From Candidatus Scalindua japonica (lineage in GTDB: Bacteria; Planctomycetota; Brocadiia; Brocadiales; Scalinduaceae): a stretch of 64,000 nt of DNA. This document shows, one piece after another, positions 13,835 to 34,900 of this stretch; positions within the stretch are counted from its first letter, which is position 1, and each line of letters opens with the position of its first letter. The notes beneath the pieces are model-generated. The model made no database searches. It had not been told where the DNA came from and saw only the letters and a list, made by a program, of their open reading frames with translations. The position numbers and the translations under genes were made by a program. Location: the NCBI RefSeq assembly GCF_002443295.1, contig NZ_BAOS01000010.1, forward strand, positions 1 to 64,000, read 5' to 3'.

Positions 13835-16800
13835 CTGCGCCAGCTTCAGGCACCCAATACCTCTCCCTGGCAAATGGATAGGTGGGCAGACTTACTCTTT
13901 TCGGCCTCTGCTCACCATAGAGCAGGTCCCAGTCTAAAACAAGCCCCCTGGTCCATAGCTCAGCCAGTTTGCCTAGCTTACCTTTCGCAACCCATTTGTC
14001 TATTGCCTCTTTTATATCATCATCAGCCGTAAAGACCGTTAAGGTCTCCTTGTTTCTCTTAACTTCACCCGTATAACAATCATCTATATCGTCTTTACCT
14101 GCAGCAAAAGACCCCAATTTGTTTATAAGACCTTTCTCGTCATTCACCAGAAAGGCCATCCGGCTGTCCATCGCTTCACGTCCCACCTGTAACGTATAGG
14201 CAATATCAGAAAGATTAAAACATTCAGTTTCTCTCTGTTCCCGACCCTCTATAAACCGGAGCAGTCTTTCAGCATAGTTTTTCAGACGCTCCCCATTCCT
14301 TGCCGACAATACCATTAATACTGGACGAGCAGCGTTTTCTTCTATTAAACCGCTGTCAGGGGAGCCCTCAGAAACGTATTCTTCAACAATAACATGGGCA
14401 TTCGAACCTCCGGCCCCAAAGGAAGAAATACCTGCTATCCTTGGACATTCCTTCTCCTGACCATTCTCCTTAATTACTGGCCTTTCCCACTCGGCAAACT
14501 CCTGCTGGACAACAAAAGGTGTTTGACTAAAATCAATATTGGGATTTAAGGTCTCAGAGTGTAACGAAGGAACAAGCTTCCGGTACTTAAGTTGTAATAA
14601 AACCTTGGTAAGACCTGCTATCCCTGCCGCTGATTCACAATGCCCAATGTTCGATTTGGCCGAGCCAATAACACAAAACTGACTGTCATCAGTAAATGTC
14701 TGATACGCCTTCGATAAACCTGTTATCTCTATCGGATCTCCTAACGATGTCCCTGTACCATGGGCCTCAATATAACTGATATGCCGTGGATTGACCCTCG
14801 ATTCTTTAATAGCATCACCAATCACAGTCCCCTGGGCGTTGGGATTAGGCACCGTATATCCATTCGTCTTGCCACCATGGTTTACTGCAGTGCCTTTAAC
14901 TACTGCATAAATATGATCTCCATCATCAATGGCCTTTTGTAACGGCTTTAACAACACACAACCCACACCTTCACCAGGCACATAGCCATCTCCTCCTTGA
15001 CCAAAACTTTCACAACGACCCTTGCTGGAAATAAACTTGCCCTGTGTTAACCCAATATATTTATTGGGATGAATAGAAACATTCACCCCACCCGCCAATG
15101 CCAATTCACAATCTCCTGTTTTTAAACTCTGACAAGCTAAATGTATCGTAGTCAAAGAGGAGGAACACATCGTATCCACCGCCATACTGGGACCATGAAA
15201 ATCACAGAAATAAGACACACGGTTGGCTATGCTTGACGGACTACCAGATAAAGCCATCACTCGACCTTTCAGACCCTCTTCAACTCCAAACAATTGATAC
15301 TCCTCATACATCACACCAGCATAGACCCCAACATTTCCCGGCAAACCATTACCATTGCGGGCATTCAAAAATTCCCGGGTATAGCCGGCATCTTCCAGAG
15401 TCTCCCATACTGTTTCCAGAAATAACCTTTCCTGAGGATCTATAAATTCCGCTTCCCGGGGTGAAATATTGAAAAACAAGGGATCAAATTTATCCACATC
15501 ATCAATAAAACCACCCCATTTACTATGGATTTTATCCATAGTGCTTTTGTCTGCATCATAATACTTACTATGGTCCCAACGCTCTCTGGGTATTTCAGTA
15601 ATACAATCTCGTCCAGACTTAAGGTTCTCCCAGAACTCCTGAAGGTCCCTGGCCCCGGGATATCTACCACTGACACCGATAATCGCAATATCTAATGGGC
15701 CTGACTCTTCTCCTTTACTGCTCACTGCTTTTAACTGCGCAAAACGGCCACGCTTAAAGGAAGATAATGACAACACGTCATCAGTTTGTTTATCAGTGAA
15801 AGTCTGTATCGCGTTACCAACGCCTAAAATCTGTACTAAAAGCCCCTGATGCGATTTTATAAAATAACCGGCCATTTCATTTATGTTTCTATATTCAAAA
15901 AACAGGGTCTTTGATAATGGGCCAAATGCCTTTTCCAACTGGCCTGTCAAATTCATAATCATAACTGAATCTATACCAAATTTTTCAAACGGGGTATCTG
16001 CATCAATACGCTGTACTGGTATCTTTAAGGTAGAAGACAACTGCTTTTTAAAATAACTTACCGCTTTTTCTTCCAGCTCTTTCTGGTCTGTATCGGCAAC
16101 TGTCTTTTGCTTAGGCCCGTGTCCTCTCAATTTTGTCTGGCCTGACATATCACTTTGTCTTAAAAGCGTATCACGCATCTTAACAAGATCACCATCAGAC
16201 ACCACCACATGTCCATAGTCAGACCCAAGTGCACGATCAAATGTATCAACCCCCGCCTCTGTTTGTAACGGCACTATCCCACTCACCTGCTCCATCATCC
16301 GCACTGCCTGCTCATCTACCTGCATTCCACCATCTCGCCATAACGACCAGCCGATAGACAACGTTCTACCATAACGCTTACCATCCTTAACCTGCCCCTG
16401 ACGAAATGCAGCAAAGGCGTCCAGAAAGGCATTCGCCCCAGCATAGTCACTCTGACCTATGCTGCCTGATACACCCGCAAGGGATGAAAAAAATATCATA
16501 AAATCCAGCCGCTCGTCCTTTGTAGCTATATCCAAATTGATAGCCCCGCTCACTTTAGGCGATAAAACCGCTTTGATCTGGTCTTCTGTTTTCTTTAATA
16601 TAAACGCATCACGGATAACACCAGCACTGTGAATAACCCCATTGAGTCTCCCGTACTTCTCTTTAATGGTTTTAATTACCGTTGCAGTATCGTCCCGTTT
16701 GCTAATATCCGCTTGTATATAGCTGACACTAATACCTGCCTGTTGCAATGCAGAAAGGTGATTCTCGTTTTCACCATCAAGCTTCGATCGGCCACTTACA

Positions 16801-17564
16801 ACTAACTTCACTTCTTTTGTTTTACCCAGATGTTGCGCAAATATACGTCCTAAACCACCTAAACCTCCCGTTATCCAGTAAACCCCTCCAGGCTTAACGG
16901 ACCTGGCAGGATCAGCTGCCTGTGCAGGCAATGTTACCTCAGTCAGACGTTTAACTTTACGCTTCTTGAGATCAGTTCTATAACGCACTTCAATATCATG
17001 ATCAGTAGAAGCGGTTGACTCTTGCTTGAGTATGGACAGAAGTTGCTGCGTATGGTCTATAGCTATTTCAGGATAATAGATAACCTTACCCTGTATCCGG
17101 GGGTTCTCGATGTGTGCCGTTTTTATCAGGCCCGCAAGTGGCGCATAGCAATAACGCTCTTCCGTGTCGGGCACCAGAATAAGTATCTGTTGCACACGGT
17201 TTGGCTTAGCTTCCAAACAACTCTTAACCTTGTCAAAAACCTCAATAAATCTGGTTTCAACGGCCTCGTCAATTGCTTTACCACGAGCTGTGAAATTGAT
17301 CACTTCAGCCTTCGGATACTCTAATGCAATGGCTTCAAGAAGCGCCTTGTCCTGACTATCAACTATGATAAACATATCCACAAGAGACAACTCCCGAGCT
17401 GAACTGCTCTGGAGGGATTGCTCATGCCACACAGTAGTTGTATACAGAGTATCATTTGATTTAATATTATTAGATACTTTTATAATTTTTTTTAATAATG
17501 AAACAGCTGTTTCATTATTAATTTTGTGTGCTTTAACTTTCTCAAGAATTTCTTTCACATCCAT
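12585..17564 (-). CDS. PKS3, upstream part: docking-KR-ACP-KS-DH-KR(start)
   Basis: This is the 5' part of PKS3, with an ATG start 18 bases after the PKS2 stop. Order: docking helix pair (residues 1-33, ILEKVKAHKINNETAVSLL) and KR (about 45-480), which completes a module whose KS-DH lies on PKS2. Then come ACP (GIDSV, about 545), KS (about 650-1,080; DTMCSSSL, HGTGT, NIGHCES), DH (about 1,290-1,560; DHRVQDEKVLP, HPSLLDGALQ) and the beginning of the next KR. The frame breaks at about 12,628, where PKS4's copy has one more G in the sequence encoding VPDTEE. Restoring that base joins it to the downstream segment as one protein of about 3,000 aa. The DH and following DNA are shared with PKS4. Confidence 0.88.
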   Translation of the reverse strand: MDVKEILEKVKAHKINNETAVSLLKKIIKVSNNIKSNDTLYTTTVWHEQSLQSSSARELSLVDMFIIVDSQDKALLEAIALEYPKAEVINFTARGKAIDEAVETRFIEVFDKVKSCLEAKPNRVQQILILVPDTEERYCYAPLAGLIKTAHIENPRIQGKVIYYPEIAIDHTQQLLSILKQESTASTDHDIEVRYRTDLKKRKVKRLTEVTLPAQAADPARSVKPGGVYWITGGLGGLGRIFAQHLGKTKEVKLVVSGRSKLDGENENHLSALQQAGISVSYIQADISKRDDTATVIKTIKEKYGRLNGVIHSAGVIRDAFILKKTEDQIKAVLSPKVSGAINLDIATKDERLDFMIFFSSLAGVSGSIGQSDYAGANAFLDAFAAFRQGQVKDGKRYGRTLSIGWSLWRDGGMQVDEQAVRMMEQVSGIVPLQTEAGVDTFDRALGSDYGHVVVSDGDLVKMRDTLLRQSDMSGQTKLRGHGPKQKTVADTDQKELEEKAVSYFKKQLSSTLKIPVQRIDADTPFEKFGIDSVMIMNLTGQLEKAFGPLSKTLFFEYRNINEMAGYFIKSHQGLLVQILGVGNAIQTFTDKQTDDVLSLSSFKRGRFAQLKAVSSKGEESGPLDIAIIGVSGRYPGARDLQEFWENLKSGRDCITEIPRERWDHSKYYDADKSTMDKIHSKWGGFIDDVDKFDPLFFNISPREAEFIDPQERLFLETVWETLEDAGYTREFLNARNGNGLPGNVGVYAGVMYEEYQLFGVEEGLKGRVMALSGSPSSIANRVSYFCDFHGPSMAVDTMCSSSLTTIHLACQSLKTGDCELALAGGVNVSIHPNKYIGLTQGKFISSKGRCESFGQGGDGYVPGEGVGCVLLKPLQKAIDDGDHIYAVVKGTAVNHGGKTNGYTVPNPNAQGTVIGDAIKESRVNPRHISYIEAHGTGTSLGDPIEITGLSKAYQTFTDDSQFCVIGSAKSNIGHCESAAGIAGLTKVLLQLKYRKLVPSLHSETLNPNIDFSQTPFVVQQEFAEWERPVIKENGQEKECPRIAGISSFGAGGSNAHVIVEEYVSEGSPDSGLIEENAARPVLMVLSARNGERLKNYAERLLRFIEGREQRETECFNLSDIAYTLQVGREAMDSRMAFLVNDEKGLINKLGSFAAGKDDIDDCYTGEVKRNKETLTVFTADDDIKEAIDKWVAKGKLGKLAELWTRGLVLDWDLLYGEQRPKRVSLPTYPFARERYWVPEAGAEVIAEGNGGVSVLHPLLGSNTSDLTEQQFTTRLTGGEFFLKDHRVQDEKVLPGVAYIEMARAAGQLATKSDVVRIRNMVWSSPVRVNSVAREVSISLYPEGNHIAFEVSSPVEGDERMVHGQGKLEVGDCSLQNIPKSLDIEGIQSRCSELQQGVDCYKAFAGRGLNYGPSFQGIESLSYNDSEALARLKLPDIVTGQAERFVLHPSLLDGALQAVAGLVGGNAKTGPQVTLLPFALSEVMIYGPIPESAYAYVRYSPGVDPQGQVLKYDIEITDELGQVVVKLKEFTVRVLQDARPSVQLSTAQAERGVLYTTTQWYEQSLQSGLAQGTGVVESLVIVDSQEEALLETIALEYPKAEVISLAPRCKAIYKVVETRFIEVFDKIKSCLGATPNRVQQILILVLTRKRVIAMRPLRA

Positions 17565-17581
17565 AGCTAAATATTACCCGA

Positions 17582-20500
17582 TTATAGCTCAAAATTTTTT
17601 ATGATTTTATAAGTCCGATCAACTGAAAGCTTTCCATTTTTTAACCTGTTAACTAATTGATGCAACATCAAATCAATGTCATTACTAATGAAATCTTCTT
17701 CCCTCGAAACATCTAAGATTGCCCTTACCACAAATTCCTTTAAAACAACCACAACCTGACCCTGACTATCGGCAATATCTATATCATACTTTAATACATT
17801 ACCCTGCCGGTCTACACCGGGACTATACCTAACATAAGCGTAAGCACTCTCCGGTATCGGTCCATATATCATTACCTCACGTAATGAAAATGGCAATAGT
17901 ATCACTTGAGAACGGGATTCTACATTGCCTGCCATCAACCCAGCTATCGACTGGACCGCAGCATCCAGAAGACTCGGGTGTAAAACAAACTGCTCTGCCT
18001 CTCCTGTAACACTATCAGGCAACTGCAGTCTGGCTAAAGTTTCACTGGTATTGTAACTCAGGCCCTTTATCCCCCGAAACGAAGGACCATAGTCCAGGCC
18101 CTGACTGGCGAATTCCTTGTAACAGTCCTCACCTTGCAACTGTTTACTACACCTCGATAGAACACCTTCTATATCCAGTAACTTTGGCCTGGCCTGCAGG
18201 CTATAATCTCCTACCTCAAGCCTCCCCTGACTGTGCACCACACGATTACCACCTTCTCCAGCGGTGTTAACCTCAAAGGCGATATGATTACCCTCGGGAT
18301 ACAAACTTATAGAAACTTCCCGATCTACACTATTTACACGAATAGGACTTGCCCATACTATGTCCCTGATCCTTAATATATCACTGTTCGTCGCCAACTG
18401 GCCCGCTGCCCGGGCCATTTCTATATAGACTACGCCCGGTAACACCTTCTCATTCAGTATCCGATGATCAGTTAAGAAAAATTCCCTGCCGGTCAATCGC
18501 GTCGTAAACTGCTGTTCGGTTAAATCCGAGGTATTGCGCCCCAACAATGGATGCAATCTGGGTACACCGCCATTTCCCTCAACAATCATTTTAGTATCAG
18601 TTTCAGGAAGCCAGTAACGCTCCCTGGCAAAAGGATATGTGGGTAGACTTACCCTTTTCGGCCTCTGCTGGCCATAGAGTAGGTCCCAGTCTAACACAAG
18701 TCCCTTGACCCATAGTTCAGCCAGCTTGCCAAGCTTGCCCTTAGCTATCCATTTAGCTATCAACTCTCTGGTATCTTCATCAGCCGTAAAGACCGTTAAG
18801 GTTTCCTTGTTTCTCTTAACTTCTCCCGTATAACAATCTTCTATATCGTCTTTACCTGCAACAAAAGATTCCAATTTATTTATAAGACCTTTCTCCTCTT
18901 TCACTAGAAAGGCCACTCGGCTGTCCATCGCTTCACGTCCCACCTGTAACGTATAGGCAATATCAGAAAGATTAAATCCTTCTGCTTCTTTATGTTCTTG
19001 GTCTTTTATAAATTGTAGTAGTCTCTCACCATAGTTCTTAAGACGTTCTCTATTCCTGGCCGATAACACCAATAATATGGGACGAGCAGAGTTTTTTTCT
19101 ATTAAACCACTGTTATGGGGTTCCTCCGAAACGTATTCTTCAACTATGACATGGGCATTTGAGCCTCCAAATCCAAAAGAACTTACACCCGCCCTCCTCG
19201 ATATTACATTATCATTCTCATCCCTCAGCTGTTGCCAACCCATCGTCTTATCCACTATATAAAAGGGGCTGTCCTTTAAATCTATATAAACATTAAGCTC
19301 TTTATAATTAATCGTGGCTGGGATCTTTTTATGCTTCATCGACAGAAGCACTTTTAAAACCCCTGCTATACCGGCCGCTGCCTCTAAATGACCTATATTC
19401 GACTTGACAGACCCAATACCGCAATAATTACTTCTCTCCTGCACACAGTCAAATCTTCTGTATAATTCACTAAACGCCTTCTTCAAACCATTCACCTCGA
19501 CAGGATCGCCCAACTCAGTACCAGTACCATGGGCCTCTATATACGTCACCGTGTCTGGTGAGACACCAGCCCTCTCATAAGCCTTCATTATTAAGTCTGC
19601 CTGTGCATTCGGGTTCGGCGCAGTCAGTGAATTGGCATGACCACCATGATTCTCGGCCGTTCCCCTTATAACTCCATATATATGATCACCATCAGATACC
19701 GCCCTGCTTAATGGCTTTAAAAGGACCGCTCCTACTCCTTCTCCCCTCACATACCCATCAGCACCTTTACTGAATGACTTACACCTGCCATCAGGCGCCA
19801 GCATTCCGGCCTTACTGAAAGATATAAATAAAACAGGCGACAACAAAGCATTCACCCCCCCTGCCAGCGCCATCTCACAATCTCCGGCCTGTATCGATTG
19901 CACAGCTCTATGTATCGCTACCAGCGAACTCGAACACGCCGTGTCTATCGGTTCACTCGGCCCATGAATATTGAGGATATACGATATGCGGTTCGCCAAT
20001 ACCGAATGCGCAAGACCCGTTGAGGTATAAGCATCAATTTCATTGCTACCATTATGATGTATAATCGTCTCATAGTCACTCGTTGCCACTCCTACATATA
20101 ACCCCGTCTTCGTACCTGACAGATCAGATGGCTTATAACCTGCATCCTCTATCACTTGCCATACGGTTTCTAGAAAAAGTCTTTGCTGAGGGTCCATCAA
20201 CTCGGCCTCCTTAGGCGAAATATCAAAAAACAGGGGATCAAACTTGTCCACATCATCTATAAATCCTCCCCACTTGATATTCGTCTTATTCACCCCATTC
20301 TGCGGATCTCCATAATAATCACGCCAGTCCCAACGATCTTCAGGTATTTCACTGATCAGGTCTTTTCCCTCCTCCAAATTCTTCCAGAATACATCCAAAT
20401 CCCTACTCTTCGGCATCCTTCCACTCATCCCTATTACCGCTATCGGCCCTGCTTCCTTCTCTACTGCTCCCATAACATTAAAGGAATCTCCTATAAACCT

Positions 20501-23500
20501 GGACCGCCTGGATTTCAGACCCACTCCTCCATGGACCGTTTCTGTGGTTATGTTCCACTCCGCTACTGATTCTGCGCCTACTTTATATTTCGCAGCAAGA
20601 AAATCTCCATGATTCTCAACCAGATACTCCGCAAACGAACCCAACGTCGGATGTTCAAAAAATACCGCAGGGTTCACTTCTACCTCATACTCCTGGTTCA
20701 TCTTATTGGCAAACTCCGTCAACATAATCGAATCAAACCCATAATCACTCATCTCTACATCAAGACCAATATCCTCTCTCTTTACCTTCAGTAAATCTGA
20801 TACGCCACGCACCAACCCTTCTTTCACCCTCTCCAAAAGGCCATTCGTATTGGCCTGTGGCGGTATTGATAATACTTTTTGCACCTTCATTGGTTGAAAT
20901 GACTCCTGTAAATGCAGCCTCGACCTAATCCTTTCTAAATCTCCTTCCATTACCATCACATGCCCATTGCCACTCTTCAACGCATTGTCAAATGCACTAA
21001 CCCCTGCTACCGTTTGCAGCGGGACCATCCCAACCGTCTTCTCCATTATCTCTTCTATCGCTTTATCCACCTTCATGCCACCATCTCGCCATAACGGCCA
21101 GCCAATGGACAGTGTCTTACCACAACGCTTACCCTCATTTACCAGACCCTGACGATATACCGCAAACTCATTCAGAAACGCATTCGCTCCCGCATAATCA
21201 CTCTGTCCAATATTACCCAACACCCCCGCTACCGATGAAAAGAAAACCATAAAATCTATCTCTTCATCCATTGTCACTCTGTCCAGCTTGATGGCGCCTT
21301 TTACCTTGGGCGCAAATACAGCCTTGATCTGATCATTCGTCTTCTTCTGCATAAATGCATCACGTATAATACCGGCACTGTGAATGATCCCGTTTAACTT
21401 GCCATACTTCTCTTTAATGGTCTTTAACGCTGCTTTTATCTGAGATCCCTTACTAATATCTGCCTGTATGTAGGTAACATCAACACCTTCTTGTTGTAAC
21501 TCAGAAAGGTACTTTTGCTTTTCTCCATCAAGTTTCGATCGACCACTCACAATTAACTTCACTCCATTTGTATCACCTAAATGTTGTACAAATATTCGCC
21601 CTAAGCCACCTAAACCGCCCGTCAACCAGTAAACTCCACCCGGTTTGATTAATTGGCCTGTATCTGTATCCTGTGAAGGTAACTTTACCTCAATCAACCG
21701 CTTGACCTGCCGTTTTTTAATACCCGCACTATAGAGTACTTCAATATCCTGATCAGCAGAAGGATGTAACTCTTGCTTGAGTATGGTCAGAAGTTGCTGC
21801 TCGTGATCTGTGATTTTTTCAGGATAATAAATAACCTTACCACGTATCCGGGGGTTCTCTAAATACGCAGTCTTTATAAGACCAGCAAGAGGCGCATAGC
21901 AATAACGCTCTTCTGTGTCTGGTACCAAAATAAGTATCTGTTGCACACGCTTAGTCTTAGCTTCTAAACAACTCTTAATCTTATCAAAAACCTCAATAAA
22001 CTTCGCCTCAACGGCATCGTCAATTACTTTGCCCAGAGGTGCGAAACTGATTATTTCAGTCTCAGGATACACCGATGCAAGAGCTTCAAGAAGCCCCCCA
22101 TCATGAATATCAACTATAATCAGCCTATCCACAAGAGATGATTCCAGAGCTGGAATGCTTTGCATCGGCTGTTCCTGCCACACGGTAGTTGTATAAAGCA
22201 ACCCTTGCCCGGCTTGTGTAGCAGATGGCTTACCTGAAGTCTCTTTCTTCTCTAAAGCCCTTACCACAAATTCCTTTAAAACAACCACTATCTGACCCTG
22301 ACTATCGGTAATATCTATATCATACTTAAACACCTTACCCTGCGGGTCTGCACCGGAACTATACCTTACATAAGCGTAAGCACTTCCAGGTATCTGTCCA
22401 TATATCATTACCTCACTCAAGGCAAAGGGTAATAGTATCACTTGAGAACGGGACCCTGCATTGCCTGCTATCAATCCAGCTACCGACTGCAACGCACCAT
22501 CCAGAAGACTCGGGTGTAAAACAAACTGATCTGCCTCTCCTGTAACACTATCAGGCAACTTCAGTCTGGCTAAAGCTTCACCGGCATTGTAACTCAGGTC
22601 TTCTATCCCCTGAAACGAAGAACCATAGTCCAGGCCCAGATTGGCAAATGCCTTGTAACAGTCCACACCTTGCAACCGTTTACTGCACCTCGACAGGACA
22701 CCGTCTATATCCAGAGACTTTGGCCTGGTCTGCAGACCATAATCTCCCACATCAAGCCCCCCCTGACTGTGCACCATACATTCACAACCTTCTTCCGAAC
22801 TGCTCACCTCAAAGGCTATATGATTACCCTCAGGATACAGACTTATCGAAACTTCCCGGGCAACACTATTGACACGAACAGGACTGGACCATACTACGTT
22901 CCTGATCTTTATAATATCACTATTTGCCGCTAACTGACCCGCTACACGGGCCATCTCTATATACGCAACGGCGGGCAAGACACGCCGGCCCTTCACCACA
23001 TGATCCGCCAGGAAAAACTCATAACCTGTGAAGGTTGAGCTGAAACGTTGTACCGAGAAGTCTGACGTATTTTTATGCAATAGCGGGTGAATAAATTCTG
23101 ACTTCTGACTTCGGATTTCTGACTTCTGGTTTTCGATTTCAGGCACCCAATACCGTTCCCTGGCAAAAGGATAAGTAGGCAATGAAATTCTGGAATACTG
23201 TTCGTTTGTAAATAATTTTTCAAAATCTAACGTATATCCCTGTATATATAAATCTGCAATCGTAGACAAATGTTCTAAATAGTCACTCGCACGATCTGTA
23301 TTTTGACACTTTCGAATGCATTCATTCCCGTACCGTTTCAAGGAGAGATGTGTCCGATGTTCGTTTTCATGCAGTTTTGAAATATAGATTTGTAACACCT
23401 TGCCCTTTTCAAGCCATTTTTTAAAGAGCTTCATAAGTTCATCCCGACTGCGAACCACACATGCTAATCGATGATTAAAGTGCTTTCTTCCGAGCAACAG

Positions 23501-25975
23501 AGTATAACTCATATTCCCACAGTCTACCTGGGTACCTTGTTCACAATAGGCAAGCATTTGAGCAACTTGCTGTCGTAACTGTTCAGAAGTACAAGCGGAT
23601 AATACAATTAAATAACCTGGCTTCCTTGAGTGTCGCCTTTCTACATTGGGAGCTTCTTCAATGACCATATGAGCATTGGTCCCACTAAACCCAAATGAGC
23701 TTATTACCGCACAGCGTTTAGAATGGGACGAGATATTCCACTCTTTAAGACGCGTATTCACGTAAAACGGGCCATCTTTAAACTGAATATTCGAATTGCC
23801 AAGCTGATAATGGAGTGAAGGCGGAATTTGTCTGTGTTTTAAAGACAATAAAACCTTCATGACACCAGCAACCCCTGCTGCAGCGGCCGGGTGTCCAAGA
23901 TTAGTTTTGATTGATCCAATCGCACAGTATTCTTTCTTATCCGTGTATTTCCTGAATGCGCGGGTCAGTGCATCATACTCAATTGGGTCTCCTAATATCG
24001 TCCCTGTTCCATGTGCCTCTACCATCTGGATTTGTTCTGGATGAATATGAAAGGTATCATATACATGGCGCTCTAACCGCTCCTGAGAATTCGCGCTCGG
24101 CGCTGTAATACCATTGGTTGTGCCGTCTTGATTAATTCCTGATCCTCGAATCACACCATAAATACGATCGCCGGAATCAAGTGCTTCTTGGAGTCGTTTG
24201 AGCACAATCACACCAACTCCCTCTCCCGGAACAAAACCATCGGCATTACTGTCAAAGGTATGGCAGCGCCCTGTAGGAGACAGCATCCCTGCTCGATTTG
24301 CTACTTTATAAAACCAAGGTGTAGATTGAATGAACACGCCGCCTGCTAATGCCAATTCAGTTTCCCCGGCCCATAAGCCTTGACAAGCCAGATGTATAGC
24401 CACTAACGAACTGGAACAAGCCGTATCAATGGCAATAGCAGGCCCTTGAAGATCCAGATAATAGGCAATTCGAGCGGGAATTACTGAACTTGCATTCCCC
24501 CAAAACGCTTGCGCTGGAGCATTATCGTTAAATAGCTGTTGATAATCACCTGCACCACATCCTACATAAACACCACACTGACGTCCCACGACACCTTCAC
24601 CTGCATACCCCGCATCCTCCAATGCCTTCCAGGATTCCTCTAAAAAGAAACGCTGTTGAGGGTCCATATAGGCTGCTTCAAGTCCTGATATCTTAAAAAA
24701 GAGAGGATCAAATTGATCTATACCCTCTAAAAAGCTGCCATGTTTACAATAATTCGTCTTTCCCCCCGAAAAACCTGAAAAATACTTCGATAGGTCCCAT
24801 CGTGATACTTCTTCAATTAAATCTGTACCCTGTGACAGATGCTCCCATAAGTCGTCCAATGTTTTTGATCTGGCAAACCGTCCACTCATCCCAATGATAG
24901 CAATGGCTTCGGAAGAAGTTCTAACTGGGCCGTGAAAATTATCATCAGGACCAAGAGATTTGGATGTATTTACTGAAGGACCTCCGGCTTTTATCTTGTT
25001 TTGATCAGATGTAGTAGCGTCAGGAAATGTTACTACAACTTTTTCAATATTTTTGCTGTTGTCCATATATTCATATGCCTGATCAATTTTTAAAGATGGG
25101 AATGATTTATAGCTGGTAGGCCGAATCATTTCTTTTGATAGACTATTAACCAAAATATCAAAATACTGCATTACTTTTTCAGGTTTTCTTTGTATTAATT
25201 CACTCAAATTAATACTACTATGTTTCGATTGATTTTCTGTGTTATCAGCAGTTATTGGTATCGAAGGAAGTAATGTGAGATGAGAGTCAGCAACATTTTT
25301 AACAAATTTAGGATCATCATGGAGTGGCTGCTTGATTCGCGCCATTGTCTCTGATGAAATCTTTTTAAAACGAACAAGCTCACGTCCAGCTTGTATTGTA
25401 GCATCAAGAATGTCACTTACTTTATCCTTAAAAAAAGGAAGAGTCATTAATGTGCTTCCATGCCTGTAAATCTCAGCTACAAGAACTTTGCCCCACACGT
25501 GATTTACATAATGGGAAACTTCATCAAAAGCGAAAGCGTCGGGTATACCAGCCACTGCAAGAACTGCTATTGAAGGGTGTCTATGTCCACCACGTAAAAG
25601 AAGTGTATCTGCACTTTCAAAATTTGATTCATTTTCAGATACATAAACATATAATGGAAGCAGTCGTTCAACAAATGTTTTTAAGGTCGCATTAATACTG
25701 AAACCATATACAGGGGTCCCATAAATAACGAGATCAGATTCCAGCCACTTAGGGACCAGCTCTGTCACCATATCATCCTTATAAATGCATATATCATTTT
25801 TTATATTGAAACAGGAAAAACAACCGACGCAATTGTTGACTTTTTTATTTGGCAGGTCCACAACCTCCACTTCACCTCCGGCATCACGTATCCCTATAAC
25901 CAAATGGTCCAGCATCAATTTGGTCCTACTCTGACCTTCTTTTCTAGGACTGGAATTAATTGCCAGTACTTTCAT
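17582..25975 (-). CDS. PKS2: iron-sulfur flavoprotein domain fused to KS-DH-KR-ACP-KS-DH
   Basis: The protein is 2,797 aa, with ATG 19 bases after PKS1. Residues 1-210 form an NADPH-dependent FMN reductase/flavodoxin-like domain. Its Cys cluster at 49, 52, 55 and 63 (CX2CX2CX7C) matches the [4Fe-4S] motif of archaeal-type iron-sulfur flavoproteins. After a linker come KS1 (about 355-790; DTACSSSL, HGTGT, NLGH), DH1 (about 960-1,240; HVVKGRRVLP), KR1 (about 1,360-1,650), ACP1 (GFDSI, about 1,761), KS2 (about 1,855-2,290; DTACSSSL, HGTGT, NIGHLE) and DH2 (about 2,485-2,760). In DH2 the HxxxGxxxxP Gly is Asn. The C-terminus ends in a docking helix (LHQLVNRLKNGKLS) that pairs with the start of PKS3, where the missing KR and ACP reside. 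There is no AT domain. The N-terminal redox fusion is unusual and its role is unknown. Confidence 0.92.
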   Translation of the reverse strand: MKVLAINSSPRKEGQSRTKLMLDHLVIGIRDAGGEVEVVDLPNKKVNNCVGCFSCFNIKNDICIYKDDMVTELVPKWLESDLVIYGTPVYGFSINATLKTFVERLLPLYVYVSENESNFESADTLLLRGGHRHPSIAVLAVAGIPDAFAFDEVSHYVNHVWGKVLVAEIYRHGSTLMTLPFFKDKVSDILDATIQAGRELVRFKKISSETMARIKQPLHDDPKFVKNVADSHLTLLPSIPITADNTENQSKHSSINLSELIQRKPEKVMQYFDILVNSLSKEMIRPTSYKSFPSLKIDQAYEYMDNSKNIEKVVVTFPDATTSDQNKIKAGGPSVNTSKSLGPDDNFHGPVRTSSEAIAIIGMSGRFARSKTLDDLWEHLSQGTDLIEEVSRWDLSKYFSGFSGGKTNYCKHGSFLEGIDQFDPLFFKISGLEAAYMDPQQRFFLEESWKALEDAGYAGEGVVGRQCGVYVGCGAGDYQQLFNDNAPAQAFWGNASSVIPARIAYYLDLQGPAIAIDTACSSSLVAIHLACQGLWAGETELALAGGVFIQSTPWFYKVANRAGMLSPTGRCHTFDSNADGFVPGEGVGVIVLKRLQEALDSGDRIYGVIRGSGINQDGTTNGITAPSANSQERLERHVYDTFHIHPEQIQMVEAHGTGTILGDPIEYDALTRAFRKYTDKKEYCAIGSIKTNLGHPAAAAGVAGVMKVLLSLKHRQIPPSLHYQLGNSNIQFKDGPFYVNTRLKEWNISSHSKRCAVISSFGFSGTNAHMVIEEAPNVERRHSRKPGYLIVLSACTSEQLRQQVAQMLAYCEQGTQVDCGNMSYTLLLGRKHFNHRLACVVRSRDELMKLFKKWLEKGKVLQIYISKLHENEHRTHLSLKRYGNECIRKCQNTDRASDYLEHLSTIADLYIQGYTLDFEKLFTNEQYSRISLPTYPFARERYWVPEIENQKSEIRSQKSEFIHPLLHKNTSDFSVQRFSSTFTGYEFFLADHVVKGRRVLPAVAYIEMARVAGQLAANSDIIKIRNVVWSSPVRVNSVAREVSISLYPEGNHIAFEVSSSEEGCECMVHSQGGLDVGDYGLQTRPKSLDIDGVLSRCSKRLQGVDCYKAFANLGLDYGSSFQGIEDLSYNAGEALARLKLPDSVTGEADQFVLHPSLLDGALQSVAGLIAGNAGSRSQVILLPFALSEVMIYGQIPGSAYAYVRYSSGADPQGKVFKYDIDITDSQGQIVVVLKEFVVRALEKKETSGKPSATQAGQGLLYTTTVWQEQPMQSIPALESSLVDRLIIVDIHDGGLLEALASVYPETEIISFAPLGKVIDDAVEAKFIEVFDKIKSCLEAKTKRVQQILILVPDTEERYCYAPLAGLIKTAYLENPRIRGKVIYYPEKITDHEQQLLTILKQELHPSADQDIEVLYSAGIKKRQVKRLIEVKLPSQDTDTGQLIKPGGVYWLTGGLGGLGRIFVQHLGDTNGVKLIVSGRSKLDGEKQKYLSELQQEGVDVTYIQADISKGSQIKAALKTIKEKYGKLNGIIHSAGIIRDAFMQKKTNDQIKAVFAPKVKGAIKLDRVTMDEEIDFMVFFSSVAGVLGNIGQSDYAGANAFLNEFAVYRQGLVNEGKRCGKTLSIGWPLWRDGGMKVDKAIEEIMEKTVGMVPLQTVAGVSAFDNALKSGNGHVMVMEGDLERIRSRLHLQESFQPMKVQKVLSIPPQANTNGLLERVKEGLVRGVSDLLKVKREDIGLDVEMSDYGFDSIMLTEFANKMNQEYEVEVNPAVFFEHPTLGSFAEYLVENHGDFLAAKYKVGAESVAEWNITTETVHGGVGLKSRRSRFIGDSFNVMGAVEKEAGPIAVIGMSGRMPKSRDLDVFWKNLEEGKDLISEIPEDRWDWRDYYGDPQNGVNKTNIKWGGFIDDVDKFDPLFFDISPKEAELMDPQQRLFLETVWQVIEDAGYKPSDLSGTKTGLYVGVATSDYETIIHHNGSNEIDAYTSTGLAHSVLANRISYILNIHGPSEPIDTACSSSLVAIHRAVQSIQAGDCEMALAGGVNALLSPVLFISFSKAGMLAPDGRCKSFSKGADGYVRGEGVGAVLLKPLSRAVSDGDHIYGVIRGTAENHGGHANSLTAPNPNAQADLIMKAYERAGVSPDTVTYIEAHGTGTELGDPVEVNGLKKAFSELYRRFDCVQERSNYCGIGSVKSNIGHLEAAAGIAGVLKVLLSMKHKKIPATINYKELNVYIDLKDSPFYIVDKTMGWQQLRDENDNVISRRAGVSSFGFGGSNAHVIVEEYVSEEPHNSGLIEKNSARPILLVLSARNRERLKNYGERLLQFIKDQEHKEAEGFNLSDIAYTLQVGREAMDSRVAFLVKEEKGLINKLESFVAGKDDIEDCYTGEVKRNKETLTVFTADEDTRELIAKWIAKGKLGKLAELWVKGLVLDWDLLYGQQRPKRVSLPTYPFARERYWLPETDTKMIVEGNGGVPRLHPLLGRNTSDLTEQQFTTRLTGREFFLTDHRILNEKVLPGVVYIEMARAAGQLATNSDILRIRDIVWASPIRVNSVDREVSISLYPEGNHIAFEVNTAGEGGNRVVHSQGRLEVGDYSLQARPKLLDIEGVLSRCSKQLQGEDCYKEFASQGLDYGPSFRGIKGLSYNTSETLARLQLPDSVTGEAEQFVLHPSLLDAAVQSIAGLMAGNVESRSQVILLPFSLREVMIYGPIPESAYAYVRYSPGVDRQGNVLKYDIDIADSQGQVVVVLKEFVVRAILDVSREEDFISNDIDLMLHQLVNRLKNGKLSVDRTYKIIKNFEL
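23095..23140. repeat. Short in-frame tandem microrepeat (TTCTGACT units)
   Basis: Several copies of TTCTGACT and variants lie inside PKS2, between the post-KS linker and DH1. On the minus strand they encode a polar KSEIRSQKSE stretch with no counterpart in the sibling modules. It looks like an insertion of a dispersed simple repeat that happens to stay in frame. Confidence 0.6.
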
Positions 25976-25994
25976 AATATGCCTTTAATAAAAT

Positions 25995-28900
25995 TTATTT
26001 GATTTCAACAAATTTGCCATCATCTACCAAGACATTCATAATATTCGTACTCACTTTTTCAAAAGAACTAATAATCGTATCAACCTTGCTATTACCAGTA
26101 AGCTCTAAAATTCCTTTTTCAAAATCATCTTCAGAATAATTGATAAGGTGTTTGACCCCCATATCCTTTAAATAATCCAGTTTTTCCTGTGAATCAACAG
26201 AAATATAAATATCAGCTTCTTTTAACAATGCCAGATGAACAGCCATGAGCCCCGTATTGACTGAGGAAGTAAGAATTAAGATCTTTTCCCCTGGTTGTAT
26301 TTCAGTATGTTCAAAAGCATAATATATTGAAAGAAAATCAACAGGCAATGTACACGCTTCCTCAAAAGTGATGTTTTCAGGCTTTTTAATAACCATACCC
26401 TCATCAACATTTGCAATAGAACTTTGCCCGTCCAGAATTTTACTTGTTAGACCTATCACCGCATCTTTAGTTTTAACCCTGGTTACATCTCTACCTGTCT
26501 TTATAACTGTCCCTGATATTCCAAAACCTGTAGTAAGAGGATAATCAGGCATATTATTATCAGGATATAAATCTTTCACATGTATATCCCCAGAATTTAA
26601 TGATAATGATTTTACAAGTATCTGCACTTCCCGATCGGAAGGATCAAAAGGAGAAAATCGATTTCTTTGCCATTTTCGATTGAAGCGATGAGAGGTATGA
26701 CGCTTTTCCTGAGCAACAGTTATTTCTTCTCTCTGAGACCCTACATCCGCTTCTTCTAAAACAGGCACATTCTCCTGTAAGAATAAAGTCAAAGTAGATT
26801 CATGTTTTTGAGTAATATACTGTAGTAGCTGGTCTACATTATTGTAATCAAACAAGATTGTTGTTTGCAAGGTAATATTACATCGTTTGCTGATTAAATT
26901 TACTAAATTTACCGCTATAATAGAATCTACTCCATATTCTGCAAAACTTTGATCATCCTGGATTTGTCCCTCTTCCATTTTTAACGCTTTTGCTATACTC
27001 TCTCGAATGACCATCCTCACATGGTCCTCAATCATTTGACCGGTCACATCAGCTCCTTTGCTCAGTACTTTTGTTTTCTGTAAGTTGAGATGCTTATTTT
27101 GAGTTATAGATGGTTGTTTCACGGGCGTTTCTCTCAGTTTAAGCGGCCTCTTTTGTCTAACGACCCCATCACTTTCAGCAATAATAATTTGCTGACCCAA
27201 ATCATGTTTCTCTCTAGCCGGAAACATGACCGACTGAAACCCTTCACTTTCCAATACTGATTGCCACGATTCTGAAGATAATACAGGACATCCTGGAATG
27301 CGTAGCATTGGATCTTCGTACAACCACCATCCCTCTAATAGACCAAATGTCAGGTGACTAAACAAGGTATTGCGACTCAACTCATTTAATAGAAGCAAAC
27401 CATTGGTCTTTAAAGCGGCTTTGGCGTTACGTAAAGTTTGTCTAATATTTTTGGTTGCATGTAAAACATTGGTAGCAACAGCTATATCATAGCCGCCTGC
27501 ACTAATGTCTTGTTTAGCAATAGGCGCTTCCACATCAAATATTTTATAGGCCAAATAGGGGTTCTTTTGGCCATACTCTTTTTCCGCATACATTAAAAAA
27601 GCTTTGGAGATGTCCGTATAACAATATTCTTGAATATGTTCCTTAAAGAACTGAAGTTTTGGAAAGATCATGGTGCTGGTCCCTCCAGTGCCAGCACCAA
27701 TTTCCAGAATTCGGATTTGTGCAGATGAATCCTGTCTAAGGCGCTCTTGAATATAAGTAACCGCAATATCAGCAAGCGCTCCATTAAAGTAATCTGCAAC
27801 CGGGTTGTATTTGTATATCCCTTCGACCAATTCCATGGAAGAATTTGGAAATAGGATGTCCGTGGCAAGTCGTTTACCAGTAAGAATTTCCGGCAAAGCT
27901 CGCAGTGTCGCCTCTACTAAAACCGCCATGGCTTTCATGTTGGGATCATCGATCCAAAGACCCTTTTTCAGATCCCACTCTGTCCATACGGCATTTACAT
28001 CCATGGGAGTCGTATCGACCACAGTGCATGACTCTCTATCAAGCTTGAGATAATTTTTTCTCGCCAAAATCGCTATACTTTCTTCAAGCCACCTATTATA
28101 AAAATCACGCATGCCACCTTTTGTGTTAAGGTCAGCTATTGGTGAGTTTTTTTGCTCAAACAACCCTGTGGACAGCAATTGAGCCCATAACAGTCTGCTA
28201 AGAAGCGTGTCCATCTCCTTCGTTTGCAAAGTAACTTTTGATTTAATTTGTTGTACTTGTACGTCTTGTTTTGGAATAGGTTTCTGCATATTCTGAATAT
28301 TTGAGAGAAGCTTTTCTGGATAGAGGGTGATATGTTCTTCTGGATTCATGCCTTCCATAACCAGAGGTCCCAAAGTTTTCAAAAGCGCAATTTGGTCCAC
28401 AGGTCCGGCAAGTAGTGTTTCCAAAGCTTCCATGGCTTCTGGGGGCTCAATGGAACCAATGCCTTCACGGGCCATTCGATCATGATAAACTTTAGAAGCA
28501 ACAATCCCGATACTTCCCCAATATCCCCAGTTAATTATTTTTACAGCACATGGCCATTTTCTGGAGAGTTGGTGCGCAAAAGCATCTTTGAATGTACAAC
28601 CAGAAGCATAGTTGCTTTGTCCCGGATTTTTTAAAAACCCAATCATGGAAGAAAAAAAGAGTACAAAATCCAGGGGTTCCTTTTGAAAAACCTGAGCTAT
28701 ACGTACACTCACATCAACCTTAGCCGACAGACCTGCTTGGAACCGTTCTTCTTCCATATTTGCCAGGCTTTGGTCCAACAAGACAATCGCCGAATGAATT
28801 ACTCCATGAATCTGTGAAAATCTCTGTTTAATTTCTCCATACGCTTGCTGTAGCGCTTTAAGATCGGTCGCGTCCGCTGCAATGTAATGAGGAACGGGAC

Positions 28901-31900
28901 CCAAGACAGCCAGCTTATCCAATTTGGATTGAATAGTTGCATCCTTCTGTCGTCGGCCAATCCAAATTACCCGTGCTTGATAGGTGCGTATCATATATTC
29001 ACTCCAAGCTTCTCCAATCCCACCGGCACCTCCTACCACTACGTACACGCCTCCACTCTTATACAATGTTTGATCCAATGAGTCGCAATGGAATGAAATC
29101 AACTGTTGCCGATACCACTCTCCACCCCGATAGATCCAGGCATTCCCCTGAGGGTCTGCAGGAAGAGAAAAAATGTCAGTGAGCGGCCAATTACAACCGC
29201 CTTCCAGATCAAAAAGCCGTACCTTCCAATTTGGGTACTCTTTTGCCATGGAACCAATCAACCCATGGATACTGGCATGGGCAGGATCCACCAAATCGTT
29301 CTTATGGACAGGTTGGGTCTGTATGGTGAAAAAACTACAGCCTAAATCCTTTGTCCCATAACCTGCGAGAAGCAGTGCCTTAACCATTCGGAAACATAGG
29401 AGAACACCCTGGCCCTGCTCTTCAATTAAGGTTTCTTCTGTCAGGGATTCCAAAGAATTATGAGGAGCAATCCACAGAATATGATCGATGGTACTATAGA
29501 CTGCTAGCTTTTTAGCTATTGTATCTATGCTATCCTTGAAATGAATTTCCAATAAACGCGCTTGGGGACAATATTGCCTGATAGCACTCCTGTTCTTTTT
29601 ATTTCCGCCAACTATCACAACCTTATCTGTTGATGATAGGAAAGCCTGCCCCTTCTCTACTGAGACTACATCCCATACGGGTGTCAGCATGATGGAACCA
29701 ACTAGTGGTCCGGTGTACGTTTCGGTGGAGGCTGCTTTTGACACATCATTGGTTTGAAAATCTCCTTCAAGCACTCTCGATGAAAATTCTTTCATCCGCA
29801 CACAAACCTTCCCGGCTTCATCACATAAATCTATATAGAGTTTCTGTACCTTATCTCCTGTTGCGCTACCGTCACTGTATCGAATCAATGCCCACATCGT
29901 GGACGTGCAACTGCTAAAAATTTCAAGCTCTTTCAAAGCAAAGGGCAGAGCTAGTTTAAGGCTATCCTTGATGCCAGGTGAATTCCCGGGACCGTTCATT
30001 AAACCTATCGACGCCTGCAAGGCGCAGTCCATCAAACTGGGATGCAGGACAAATTGGTCCGCCGTGTCAGAGACTTCGGATGGCAAAAACAACTTTGCCA
30101 ATACCTTATTATGGCCCACATATACCACTTCAATCCCCTGGTGTCCAGGACCATAGTCGATCCCCATTGCCCTGAAAGTTTTATAGCATTGGCTTGAAGA
30201 AAGGGTTCTCTGGCTGCACTCAGCCCGCAGGGAATTGAGGTCCAATGTAGTAACTGCAGCAGCAGAATTTTTATTTTGAGTCGTTCTGTTCCTCTCAGGA
30301 TGAATTCCTTCGAAGGGCAGCACCACCTTTCCCTTACTGTGTACGACAGGCGCTTCGTCACCATTTTCAGGGACACTATAAATCTCATAGGCAACCATTC
30401 CGTCCTCTTCAGGAAAAAGCCCGATGTGGACATGGACCGGCTGTTCCCCTACAGTAACAGGTCTGGCCCATACCACGTCTTTAAGGCGGACTACCATCTG
30501 ACCTTCACCCAAATTTCCTGCCGCCCGGGTCACTGCCGCTCGTGCCATCTCCAAATAAGCCACTCCGGGTAAAACACGCCGTCCCTTCACCACATGGTCC
30601 TCCAGAAAAAACTCTTGACCAGTAAAGGTAGAGCTAAACCTTTGCTCCGAAAAGTCAGAAGTATTCTGGTGGAGCAAAGGATGCAACCTTTGAATTTCTT
30701 CTCCCCTCGCCATACTCCGCTCTCCCCTTGTCTCAGGGACCCAATACCGTTCCCTCACAAATGGGTAAGTTGGCAGACTGATTCTATTTGGTTTGACATC
30801 TCCATAGAGTTTGTTCCAATCGAAATTCAGGCCCTTGACCCAAAGATCTGACAGCTTGGAAAGTTTTCCTCGTTGAACCCATTTGTTAATGGCTTCCTGC
30901 AATTCTCCATCTGCCTCAAAAACAGCTAATGTTTCTTTATTTCGTTTAACCTGACCTCGATACATATATTCAATACCTTCCTTACCATCAATAAACCCCT
31001 CCAGCTTTTCCTCAAGTTCTTTGACAGTCCCCACAATTACCGCCAGACGCTCTTCCATCGCTTCGCGTCCAACCTGAAGAGTATAGGCTATCTCAACCAG
31101 GTGGTGGTCAGAGAATTGCTGCTCCCTGATCGCAGCCAATAATTGCACTACCTGTTCATTAAGTCGATCTTCATTTTTTGCCGATAGTACAATAATGAAG
31201 CTGTCCTGAGAGCTAATCATAATTTGTGGCTGTTCCTGATTCTCAGGAACATATTCTTCGACCACTACATGGGCATTCGCCCCTCCCGCGCCAAAGGATG
31301 ATATGCCTGCCCGTCTTGGATATTCCCTGGCTTCTCCATTGGTCCAGACTACCGGCCGTTCCCATTCAGCAAGTTTTTGTTGGACTATAAAGGGGGTACT
31401 CTCGAAATCAATATTTGGATTCAGCACCTCAGAATGTAGTGAAGGCACTAACTTACGATGTTTTAGTTGCAGCAATACTTTCGTTACACCACAAATACCA
31501 GCCGCACTCTCACAATGCCCGATATTCGACTTTGCTGATCCGATTGCACAAAACTGTTTGTCTTGCGTGTATTCCTGGAAGGCTTTATTCAAACCTGTGA
31601 TTTCTATTGGATCACCTAAGGAAGTCCCAGTGCCATGCGCTTCCATATAACTGACTGTCCTTGGATCAATCCCTGCTTCCTTAAAAGCCCGTCCAATGAC
31701 ACTGGCTTGAGCATTAGGATTAGGGACGGAATAGCCATTGGTTTTTCCACCATGATTGATCGCAGTCGCTTTGATTACTCCATAAATATGGTCCCTATCG
31801 GCAATTGCTTTAGACAGGGGTTTAAGCAACACTGCCCCAACGCCTTCTCCAGGAACATAGCCGTCTCCACCTTGCCCAAAGCTCTCACACTTCCCTTTAC

Positions 31901-34900
31901 TGGAAGCAAACTTGCTCTGCCCCAACAGGAGATATTTGTTGGGATGAATGGAGAGATTCACACCTCCTGCAATCGCAAACTGGCAGTCTCCTTGCTTTAA
32001 GCTTTGACATGCCAGATGAATCGTGGTCAGAGAGGAAGAACACATGGTATCTACAGCCATGCTGGGACCATGAAAATTACAAAAATAGGAGACCCGGTTT
32101 GCAATCGATGATGGGATCCCTGAAAGGGCGATTGGCCTGCCTTGAATTGTTGCTTCTGCTCCGTAAAGTTGGTACTCTTCGTACATCACCCCTGCATATA
32201 TACCTACATTACCTCTCAAACCAAAGCTTTTGTACATGCCTAGAGCTTCTCGGGTATATCCAGCATCTTCTAAGGTTTCAAAGACACATTCCAGGAATAA
32301 ACGCTCCTGGGGGTCCATAATTTCTGCTTCCCGTGGTGAAATATTGAAAAACAGAGGATCAAATTGGTCCACACCTTCCAAAAACCCCCCCCACTTACTG
32401 TAAGTTTTTCCCGATTTGTTCTTATCTTCATCAAAGTACAGGTTATGGTCCCAACGGTCTTTTGGGACTTCGGTGATACAATCCTTGCCATCTCGTAGAT
32501 TTTTCCAAAACTCGTTAATATTTCTCGCACCCGGATAGCGTCCCGAAAGGCCAATGATTGCAATATCTAAAGCATTGGTTGCTTTTTCTTCATGAGATGG
32601 TGCACGAATGGACGCGAAACGTGGCCGTCTGCGAGTAGTGAGGGCCGATGTTACAGAATTGTTCTCAGTTACCGAATCATTATATTTGGTAGTGGCTGTT
32701 TCTGAATTTCCCTCCATTCCCAGTAATGCTGCCAGTTTCGCAGGGTATGATTCAACGAAATATCTACTTAGTTCCTTTATGTTTTGATATTCAAAAAATA
32801 ATGTTTTCGATAAAGACCCAAACGTTTTTTCCAATTGGATGGTCAGTTTCATTACCATAATAGAATCGATCCCGTATTTTTCCATCGGTGCTTCCATTTC
32901 GAACCGATGTGCGGGTAGCTTGATGACGGAAGAAAGTAAATTTACTAAGTAGTTGGCCGTTTTTTCCTGGAGCAATTCCTGTTCAATTGCCGGAACGGAC
33001 TTGTTTTCCTCAAGTGTTTCTGAATCTTCTGTTCGGAAAGATTGATCAAGGAGTGTTGCACGGAGTCGTTCTAGCTCCCCTTCCATCACCATCACTTGAG
33101 ACAGACCTGATGCCAAACCTTGATACAAGGCCTGGACACCAACTCTGGTATCCATAGCAATCAACCCTATACTTTGCTTCATCATTTTCTCAGTTGTTTC
33201 ATCGACTTGCATCCCACCCTCTTTCCAAAGGGGCCAATTAATGGATAACGTTAGACCATGGCGCTGTTTTGAGGCAACCAGGTGGTTACGATATTTAGCA
33301 TATGCATCCATAAAAGCGTTGGCAGTCGCGTAATCGGCTTGCCCTGGATTACCCATAACTCCCACACCAGAAGAAAAGCAGATAAAAAAGTCCAGCGGTA
33401 AATTTTTGCTTGCTCGATCTAGATTTGTAAGGCCTGTAACCTTGGGTGCCAGAACTACCTGCAATTCGTCACTAGTTTTTTTCAGGATGAAGTTGTTTCG
33501 AATGACACCTGCACTATGAATGATCCCATGAAGGTTTCCAAAATCCTCCCGAATCCTTTGGATTAACCCCGCAACCGCGTTCTTTTGGGTCACATCTACC
33601 TGTTTGTATTCTATCCTGGCGCCTGAAACTTCCAATGCTTTAAGCCTGGCCTGTTTATCCTCATCCAAAGGAGATCGTCCAGTAAGGACCAGAGTTGCAT
33701 CCTTGACCTTTTGTATAATTTCCCTGGCAAAAATGATCCCCAAACCTCCCACGCCACCCGTGATCAGATAGATACCATGATCTTTCCATGGGACCTTTTC
33801 TCCGGGAAAAGCTTCAACTTCTCCCCATGTGGCAACAAGACGTTTGCCACCTTGATAGCAAATCTGCTTATCCACATGTCGCCGGCTGTTCTCCTTCAAT
33901 TTCTCTATGATTCCTTCACAAACTTCTCTTGGACTCACTCCAACCAGCTGTCCAATAATTGTTGGGTTCTCCAACCGGGCAGTTCTCAAAAGACCAGAAA
34001 GGCCGGAAAAAAGTTGCTGCTCCTCCTGGATAGTAAACACAATCTGAACCAAAACATTCACTTTATGTTTTGCGCTAATGATCCTTTTGATTTCCTCAAA
34101 CACTATGACAGCATAAGATTGGAACCGTTCCTCAATACCTTTCTGTTTGGATTGCAAGGCAAGACAACGCACCCCATTAATTTGAGTTTCGATGCTTGCC
34201 TTAAGACTATCACCCATTTCACAAAGTATAACCAGATGTTCTGAAAGTGCAGGTGCTGTAGCTTCTTCAGGGACAGTTTGTTCTTTCCAGCATGGTTTGA
34301 GTATCAAAGTTCCGACAGTTGCAGTGGTGTGTCCTGGGCCTATTGAATGAGTACCACCATCACTGATTTCTCCTGTCAGCACTCTCAACGAAAACCCTTT
34401 CATCCGCACACAAATTACCCCATTATCATCACACAAATCAATATCGAGTTTCTGCGCCTTATTTCCTATCACCGTGTCTTCACTTGGCCTGAGTAGTGCC
34501 CACATTGCGGAAGTGCAGCTATCGAGAATTTCAAGCTCTTGAAGAGCAAAGGGAAGAGTCGGTTTGAGGGAGGAATCACGGACATCCGCAAGGAACGCCC
34601 CAACCAGATCATCAGTGTCAATCATCAAGCCGATCGAAGCCTGCAGAGCTGAATCAATCAAACTGGGATGCAGAACGAATTGTTCCTGAGTATCTAAAAC
34701 GGAGATAGGCAAAGACAGCTTTGCCAGTACTGAATCACTGCCCACAAATACCTCTTCAATTCCCTGGTGCCCTGGGCCATAGTCCATTCCCATCGACCTG
34801 AAGGCTTCGTAACATTGACTAGCAGAAAGACTGCGTTGACTGCACTCAGCCTGCAAGACCTTGAGGTCTAATTTTGGGGTTTCTTTAACAGCACTGAACA

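Follow-up and report, generated by a model that had tools for sequence, protein, structure and literature searches.

How does a flavoprotein come to stand at the head of a polyketide synthase (PKS), and what, if anything, does it do there? This question is raised by a 64,000-nt stretch of Candidatus Scalindua japonica (contig NZ_BAOS01000010.1, positions 1 to 64,000; hereafter the window, whose numbering is used throughout), in which two large genes, PKS1 and PKS2, follow one another on the minus strand. An initial annotation had placed a flavodoxin-like flavin mononucleotide (FMN) reductase with four cysteines (C49, C52, C55 and C63) at the start of PKS2, in frame with the ketosynthase (KS), dehydratase (DH), ketoreductase (KR) and acyl carrier protein (ACP) domains KS-DH-KR-ACP-KS-DH, and directly behind a ‘degenerate’ enoylreductase (ER) at the end of PKS1. 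The domain and its continuity with the synthase both hold up. The PKS2 open reading frame (ORF) encodes 2797 aa, begins with ATG and reads through from the flavoprotein into the KS without interruption; Pfam finds FMN_red (PF03358, residues 1–105, E = 5.9e-15) and Flavodoxin_2 (4e-10) at its start, followed by KS and DH (two each) and KR and ACP (one each). The flavodoxin part is longer than the ∼210 residues (25335–25975) first assigned, which cover residues 1–213, as similarity to stand-alone relatives reaches about residue 235 (window ∼25273). By their predicted domain content, PKS1 and PKS2 are of the trans-acyltransferase (trans-AT) type, since Pfam matches no AT in either and a separate AT is encoded at 45556–46518. 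The features of the locus, all on the minus strand, are as follows.

17582–25975, minus strand: PKS2 gene, flavodoxin, ER C-terminal part, KS, DH, KR, ACP, KS, DH (ORF, Pfam).
25995–37199, minus strand: PKS1 gene, KS-DH-KR-ACP-KS-DH-KR-methyltransferase (MT)-ACP-ER (N-terminal part) (ORF, Pfam).
25273–25975, minus strand: predicted flavodoxin-fold FMN reductase domain of the quinone reductase/azoreductase type, PKS2 residues 1–235 (Pfam, relatives, AlphaFold model).
25998–26648, minus strand: N-terminal ∼2/3 of a PKS ER of the medium-chain dehydrogenase/reductase (MDR) type, the final 217 residues of PKS1 (3518–3734), with SSVNTG at the NADPH motif (CurK ER match, PF00107, PF08240, alignments).
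25019–25240, minus strand: C-terminal ∼1/3 of an MDR-type PKS ER, PKS2 residues 246–319 (matches to the CurK ER and the intact ER of a congener).
25976–25997, minus strand: PKS1 stop codon (25995–25997) and a 19-nt gap with AAAGG, up to the PKS2 ATG (sequence).
23642–24910, minus strand: first KS of PKS2, residues 356–778 (74% identity to the KS after the intact ER of the congener).
45556–46518, minus strand: discrete AT (ORF matching fabD-type AT).

Both flanks of the flavodoxin domain match ERs of known structure. The 217-residue tail of PKS1 aligns to residues 52–272 of the CurK ER (PDB 5dp1, E = 2e-27) and contains the ADH_N (PF08240, 2.4e-7) and Rossmann (PF00107, 6.1e-12) parts of a PKS ER. 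The stretch behind the flavodoxin domain (PKS2 residues 254–318) aligns to CurK ER residues 294–358 (E = 6e-5) and also to the C-terminal part of the JamJ (1e-4) and CurF (1e-3) ERs; against the intact ER of the congener, the C-terminal piece gives an E value of 3e-10. Because the two pieces cover consecutive, correctly ordered ranges of the same solved ERs, we read them as one ER interrupted by the flavodoxin domain. The ER breaks off directly where the Rossmann strand GKFVEI ends, some 15 of its residues are lost between the pieces (judging from alignment to intact ERs in ACP-ER-KS context), and no complete contiguous ER remains, the domain being split over two ORFs. On this sequence evidence, we are highly confident that the ER houses an entire flavoprotein gene, foreign in type, which divides it between PKS1 and PKS2. 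The initial annotation was right that a damaged ER directly precedes the flavoprotein; what it took for an N-terminal fusion is an interruption, with the C-terminal third of the same ER in PKS2. An SCP2 remnant, a domain known from stand-alone relatives, was considered behind the flavodoxin part and dropped once that stretch matched ERs.

Uninterrupted counterparts were sought in the window's own genome (G000; contigs C1 and C7–C10), the congener (G004) and a genome of the same phylum (G127, in which G141 and G65a are two ER units). G004 encodes KS-DH-KR-MT-ACP-ER-KS in a single 4557-aa frame (C16:46790-60460), with the ER intact and no insert, and the domain order of the window module is that of the G004 module once the insert is set aside. 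G127 has the same KS-DH-KR-MT-ACP-ER-KS order, together with other ACP-ER-KS units, and contig C1 of the window's own genome has ACP-ER-KS in one frame. A search with the C-terminal ER piece through 75 genomes of this class gave matches in two, the window's own and G004.

The borders of the insert are those of a gene. PKS1 ends in TAA and the PKS2 ATG follows 19 bases on, in a frame shifted by one base, with AAAGG six bases ahead of it. Upstream of this ATG, the open frame extends by three codons only (2800 codons from stop to stop). The ATG coincides with the start of stand-alone relatives (MKVLAINSS), and M1 is invariant in an alignment with 14 of them. In the simplest history, a whole gene was inserted with its own ribosome-binding site and without its stop. 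We looked for a target-site duplication at the borders and found just a 7-nt match, which is not meaningful.

The ER has diverged far more than its neighbours. Between the window and G004, identities are 74% for the KS, 62% for MT, 60% for ACP, 57% for DH, 57% for KR and only 41% for the ER, whereas intact ERs are 63% identical (G004–G141) where the KS pair is at 70%, and 65% (G004–G65a) where it is at 71%. In tree distance, the ERs of the window and G004 are 1.38 apart, versus 0.58 for G004–G141, with respective KS distances of 0.38 and 0.49. One caveat concerns the KS at the upstream end of the module, which shares 47% identity with G004 and 57% with G141; the module is therefore a mosaic, and the G004 comparison is valid for the DH-to-KS part. 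Of 65 conserved ER positions, the window ER is off at 33 (a count that includes its five terminal gaps), compared to 0–19 of 45–60 in 13 other PKS ERs; five of the 19 aligned rows (three duplicate loci and two non-PKS quinone oxidoreductases, L095 and L097) were left out. When only the seven ACP-ER-KS rows were considered and gaps ignored, columns invariant in the others were changed at 26 of 70 positions in the window ER, at 0–12 of 50–62 in the six other ERs, and at 4 of 159 in the window KS. At the NADPH motif, the window ER has SSVNTG in place of the TAAGGTG, AAASAVG, AAAGGVG or near forms of the other aligned ERs; a conserved glutamate is lost (GFE to GFG), as are the GD/NTL-GE positions. 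Given the low identity (41% versus 63–65%) and the lost NADPH motif, the split ER is very probably dead, with motif, ∼15 residues and sequence constraint gone.

The flavodoxin domain presents a different picture. An AlphaFold model built from a 15-row alignment has a mean predicted local distance difference test (pLDDT) score of 81 and resembles FMN/FAD quinone reductases and azoreductases (Foldseek E down to 5e-10; Z of 15–17 over 144–192 residues). The structure prediction that the initial annotation had suggested as a check thus returns the flavodoxin fold; the cysteine region is poorly modelled, with pLDDT under 50 at residues 48–54, within the motif, and also at 114–123. Iron-sulfur flavoproteins (Isf) carry CX2CX2C plus a fourth Cys 4–7 residues further, and C49, C52, C55 and C63 form such a compact set (CX2CX2CX7C) on an Isf-like flavodoxin fold. 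All four are invariant across the alignment with 14 close relatives. The loop between C55 and C63 has been wholly replaced while the four Cys were retained, and the relatives' WTKTPG is gone from PKS2. The name ‘iron-sulfur flavoprotein’ reflects the Cys motif alone, and the Fe-S cluster is putative. Also kept are the N-terminal phosphate loop, D67-D68-M69, P88, K99, R104 and G143. The domain most probably keeps its fold and its FMN binding.

Where did the insert come from? Its closest relatives found are stand-alone proteins from Deltaproteobacteria metagenome-assembled genomes (MAGs), Desulfocarbo and a Dehalococcoidia MAG (14 relatives, 43–51% identity over the whole domain, beyond what chance would give). 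In a larger set of 61 relatives, the length from the homologous start to the stop is 14–360 residues, three of less than 80 residues being cut or broken; none of these 61 loci has a KS or an MDR-type ER, giving 0/61 for the fusion. The longer proteins include a group of ∼350–360 aa from anaerobic Deltaproteobacteria and others (L021, L024-L026, L028-L033, L040), with a flavodoxin-fold FMN reductase followed by a C-terminal extension; in the three of the longer stand-alone relatives that were scanned, an SCP2 domain was found. A further, mostly archaeal group (L034, L037-L039, L041-L051, L053, L067) has the second Cys of the four replaced, giving a CxGxFxCW...C type. Among 19 clustered loci with products read by eye, the neighbourhoods of stand-alone relatives showed no common functional context and no conserved neighbours.

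The close family is rare around the host. It was found in 1 of 62 genomes of the host's order (its own), in 3 of 392 of the phylum sample (its own, and two in which the gene stands alone, with frames of 252 and 258 aa), and in 1 of 6 of the order of G127 (a 203-aa frame). These counts, together with the closest relatives lying in other groups, make a horizontal origin of the domain likely. Among the matches listed from 59 related genomes, no frame other than the window's own exceeds 257 aa. The contig scan relied on exact 8-residue patterns, which distant or fused relatives may escape. Of 72,556 plasmid records, 32 matched, with no PKS annotation among the 25 matches listed, and viral contigs gave no match to the flavodoxin family. 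That no standard PKS module is known to have such a fusion, as first proposed, agrees with the absence of a second case among the 61 relatives, and the limited paper collection searched, including passages of PMC10921412 and PMC9113145, gave no description of a flavodoxin domain in a PKS.

If the ER is dead, is the chain still reduced? A KS tree places the first KS of PKS2 in one group (support 1.0) with G127 KSs that stand behind DH-KR-MT-ACP-ER, DH-ACP-ER and DH-KR-MT-ACP. Its five nearest neighbours in the KS set are from G004 (74%, ER before; 73%, ACP only) and G127 (72%, ER; 71%, ER; 68.5%, no ER seen). As an in-line ER precedes three of the five, the comparison suggests, weakly, that the chain passed to this KS was once reduced. 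Another candidate catalyst lies elsewhere in the genome. Trans-ERs of the PfaD/PksE type are flavin enzymes that reduce enoyl groups on trans-AT lines, and the one in this genome lies on contig C7 (G000:C7:56371-65394; L118, L119), where its neighbours are a discrete AT and a PKS gene represented by its 3′ end. Contig C7 ends inside a KS; this PKS may continue into contig C8, C9 or C10, and the trans-ER may belong to the same cluster as the window PKS.

The explanation we favour begins with a stand-alone gene for a flavodoxin-fold FMN reductase, complete with short 5′ leader, ribosome-binding site and start codon but no stop, which entered the ER of a KS-DH-KR-MT-ACP-ER-KS module in a trans-AT PKS. 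The inserted leader terminated PKS1 within the ER, and the insert's own start codon became that of PKS2, whose frame passes from the insert to the remaining third of the ER and on to the following KS; the sequence makes this part of the account highly probable. The interrupted ER has very probably decayed beyond function, with its NADPH motif, ∼15 residues and constraint lost. The flavodoxin domain would stand where the ER stood, after the methylated enoyl-ACP of PKS1 and before the first KS of PKS2, handing hydride from FMNH2 to the enoyl thioester, and the four Cys might hold a cluster passing electrons from ferredoxin. Taken as a whole, this account has in our judgement an even chance of being right. 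That the domain is the acting enoylreductase at the former ER position, possibly with a Cys cluster, is a tentative proposal. Doubtful, though worth stating, is the boldest version: that a flavoenzyme, possibly [4Fe-4S], jumped into an NADPH-dependent ER and so replaced it. The PKS would then have an in-line ER, driven by ferredoxin or flavin, of a type not known in assembly lines, and a subunit boundary within a domain that the remains of the former ER hold together.

Several observations weigh against a catalytic role. The PKS2 domain is changed at 16 of 60 columns invariant in 14 close stand-alone relatives (others 0–5), and at 5 of 25 (A34, W56, A86, H125, S140; others 0–3) invariant in the 34 wider relatives that cover the whole domain, the remaining 27 of 61 being left out. 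The lost residues, W56 and H125 among them, may reflect either relaxation or a changed activity. Of the 34 full-length stand-alone relatives, 17 (16 of them labelled archaeal) did not show the four-Cys pattern, and the replaced second Cys of the mostly archaeal group makes a cluster shared by the whole family doubtful. No ER was detected before two of the five nearest KSs, and the single PfaD-type trans-ER (662 bits) could do the work. Finally, the flavone reductase FLR, which resembles the domain only over residues 1–109 of 310, needs its C-terminal tail and does not use NAD(P)H directly, according to PMC7862272. The role of in-line redox domain in place of the ER, as initially suggested, is possible and not more: invariant residues are lost and the genome has a trans-ER.

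The insert might be a passenger or a structural element, which performs no chemistry, provides only the start of PKS2 and perhaps a dimerising or docking head, while the enoyl group is reduced by the trans-ER or left unreduced. We regard this as a serious alternative, short of an even chance. The loss of family-invariant residues speaks for it, as do the trans-ER beside the discrete AT and PKS end on contig C7 and the restriction of the arrangement to one genome; the four Cys, the N-terminal phosphate loop and 20 of the 25 wide-family invariant positions have nonetheless been retained. In a rough comparison, moreover, the flavodoxin domain has drifted less (branch 0.68 versus 0.24–0.50) than the ER (1.38 versus 0.58). 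Changes at invariant columns are no proof of death, since L035, a true stand-alone relative, also carries them (3 of 23 and 7 of 36 on the wide-relative tests). The domain is either retooled or relaxing.

Another reading keeps the domain active in a different redox step, dehydrogenating the chain or relaying electrons, for example to the radical SAM protein encoded at 43740–45296. The presence of that gene in the cluster is consistent with this, and the domain belongs to the same broad family as proteins annotated as SgcG, the 2-amino-4-deoxychorismate dehydrogenase known from enediyne clusters. Nothing points to such a substrate and the insertion site is an ER, making this unlikely. Action on the thiazoline, also raised initially, is unlikely too, as the nonribosomal peptide synthetase (NRPS) of the cluster has its own nitroreductase-type oxidase domain and an azoline ring would therefore be oxidised there. 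It is quite improbable that the two ER pieces reunite across PKS1 and PKS2 and work, with the flavodoxin domain a tolerated surface-loop insert. The break directly after a Rossmann strand would allow it, and trans-AT PKSs often have split modules, though the splits fall between domains (PMC9113145); the changed NADPH motif (SSVNTG for TAAGGTG/AAASAVG), the lost GFE and GD/NTL-GE positions, the ∼15 missing residues and an identity of 41% against an expected ∼63% argue otherwise. An assembly artefact (chimeric join or indel errors) can be set aside as extremely improbable: the MAG does contain error-prone repeats (3.58 kb at 99.7%, nine gaps, at a contig end) and, near 12.6 kb, what is probably a false frameshift, but the insertion site is >11 kb from that repeat, the insert begins at the family's own Met with AAAGG ahead, and a chimera would not have the ER resume beyond the insert, ∼15 residues short, in frame with the KS.

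The rest of the cluster and genome can be described briefly. The NRPS (37220–43654) opens with an FkbH-like part (FkbH by eye), after which come condensation, adenylation, nitroreductase-type oxidase and carrier domains. The radical SAM protein is of the B12-binding type, and its best matches, HpnJ and BchE, fall well below their cut-offs. The 3.58-kb repeat (window 16–3589 and 10317–13889; 99.7% identical, nine gaps, at the contig end) has a TGA inside a KS at 107–856, and one copy looks like it contains indel errors. A third synthase, PKS3, is broken at ∼12585–12680 by an apparent frameshift between ORFs 12585–17564 and 8509–12678, which may be an assembly error. Contig C1 carries a second PKS cluster (G000:C1:62733-107869; parts of L099, L100, L113, L114). 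Those of its modules that were seen are without AT, its ACP-ER-KS is uninterrupted, and a 4.75-kb stretch is repeated within it at 99.5% identity. The host probably belongs to Planctomycetota, a phylum that lacks FtsZ: FtsZ_C is missing from this genome and present in 13 of 14 control genomes.

The locus matters because a PKS has apparently been caught changing parts: a foreign enzyme gene lies in frame in a catalytic domain, the host domain is decaying, and the ORF is cut in two, while an uninterrupted form in the same genus allows comparison. An active flavodoxin domain would give assembly lines a second means of in-line enoyl reduction, based on flavin and of use to anaerobes and to engineers. 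An inactive one would show that PKS lines can accommodate 235 extra residues at a reductase that no longer works.

How does this arrangement compare with known systems? The PfaD/PksE-type trans-ER, present in one copy, is a separate protein from a different family. FLR (PDB 7d38), a flavin (FMN) ene-reductase (PMC7862272), is the best solved sequence match and shares the N-terminal fold region; it is not a PKS domain, and the PKS2 domain falls short of the search criterion given in PMC7862272, an identity of 30% or more across 80% or more of FLR. It also lacks the C-terminal tail of FLR, having ER and KS sequence after ∼235 residues. Stand-alone flavodoxin(-SCP2) proteins of Deltaproteobacteria and others (L020-L033, L040) share the start Met, CX2CX2CX7C and 43–51% identity over the whole domain, and by full-length similarity and the four Cys the PKS2 domain belongs with them. 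They differ in being single-gene proteins, several with an SCP2 domain that PKS2 lacks, and in the WTKTPG loop. The in-line MDR ERs of CurK, JamJ and CurF (PDB 5dp1, 5doz, 5dov, 5dp2) align with the window ER halves in the right order; unlike these, the window ER is interrupted by a whole flavoprotein, spread over two proteins and without its NADPH motif. The G004 and G127 modules, KS-DH-KR-MT-ACP-ER-KS, share the window's order, with the next KS 74% and 71% identical, and keep in one frame, free of any insert, the intact ER that the window has divided.

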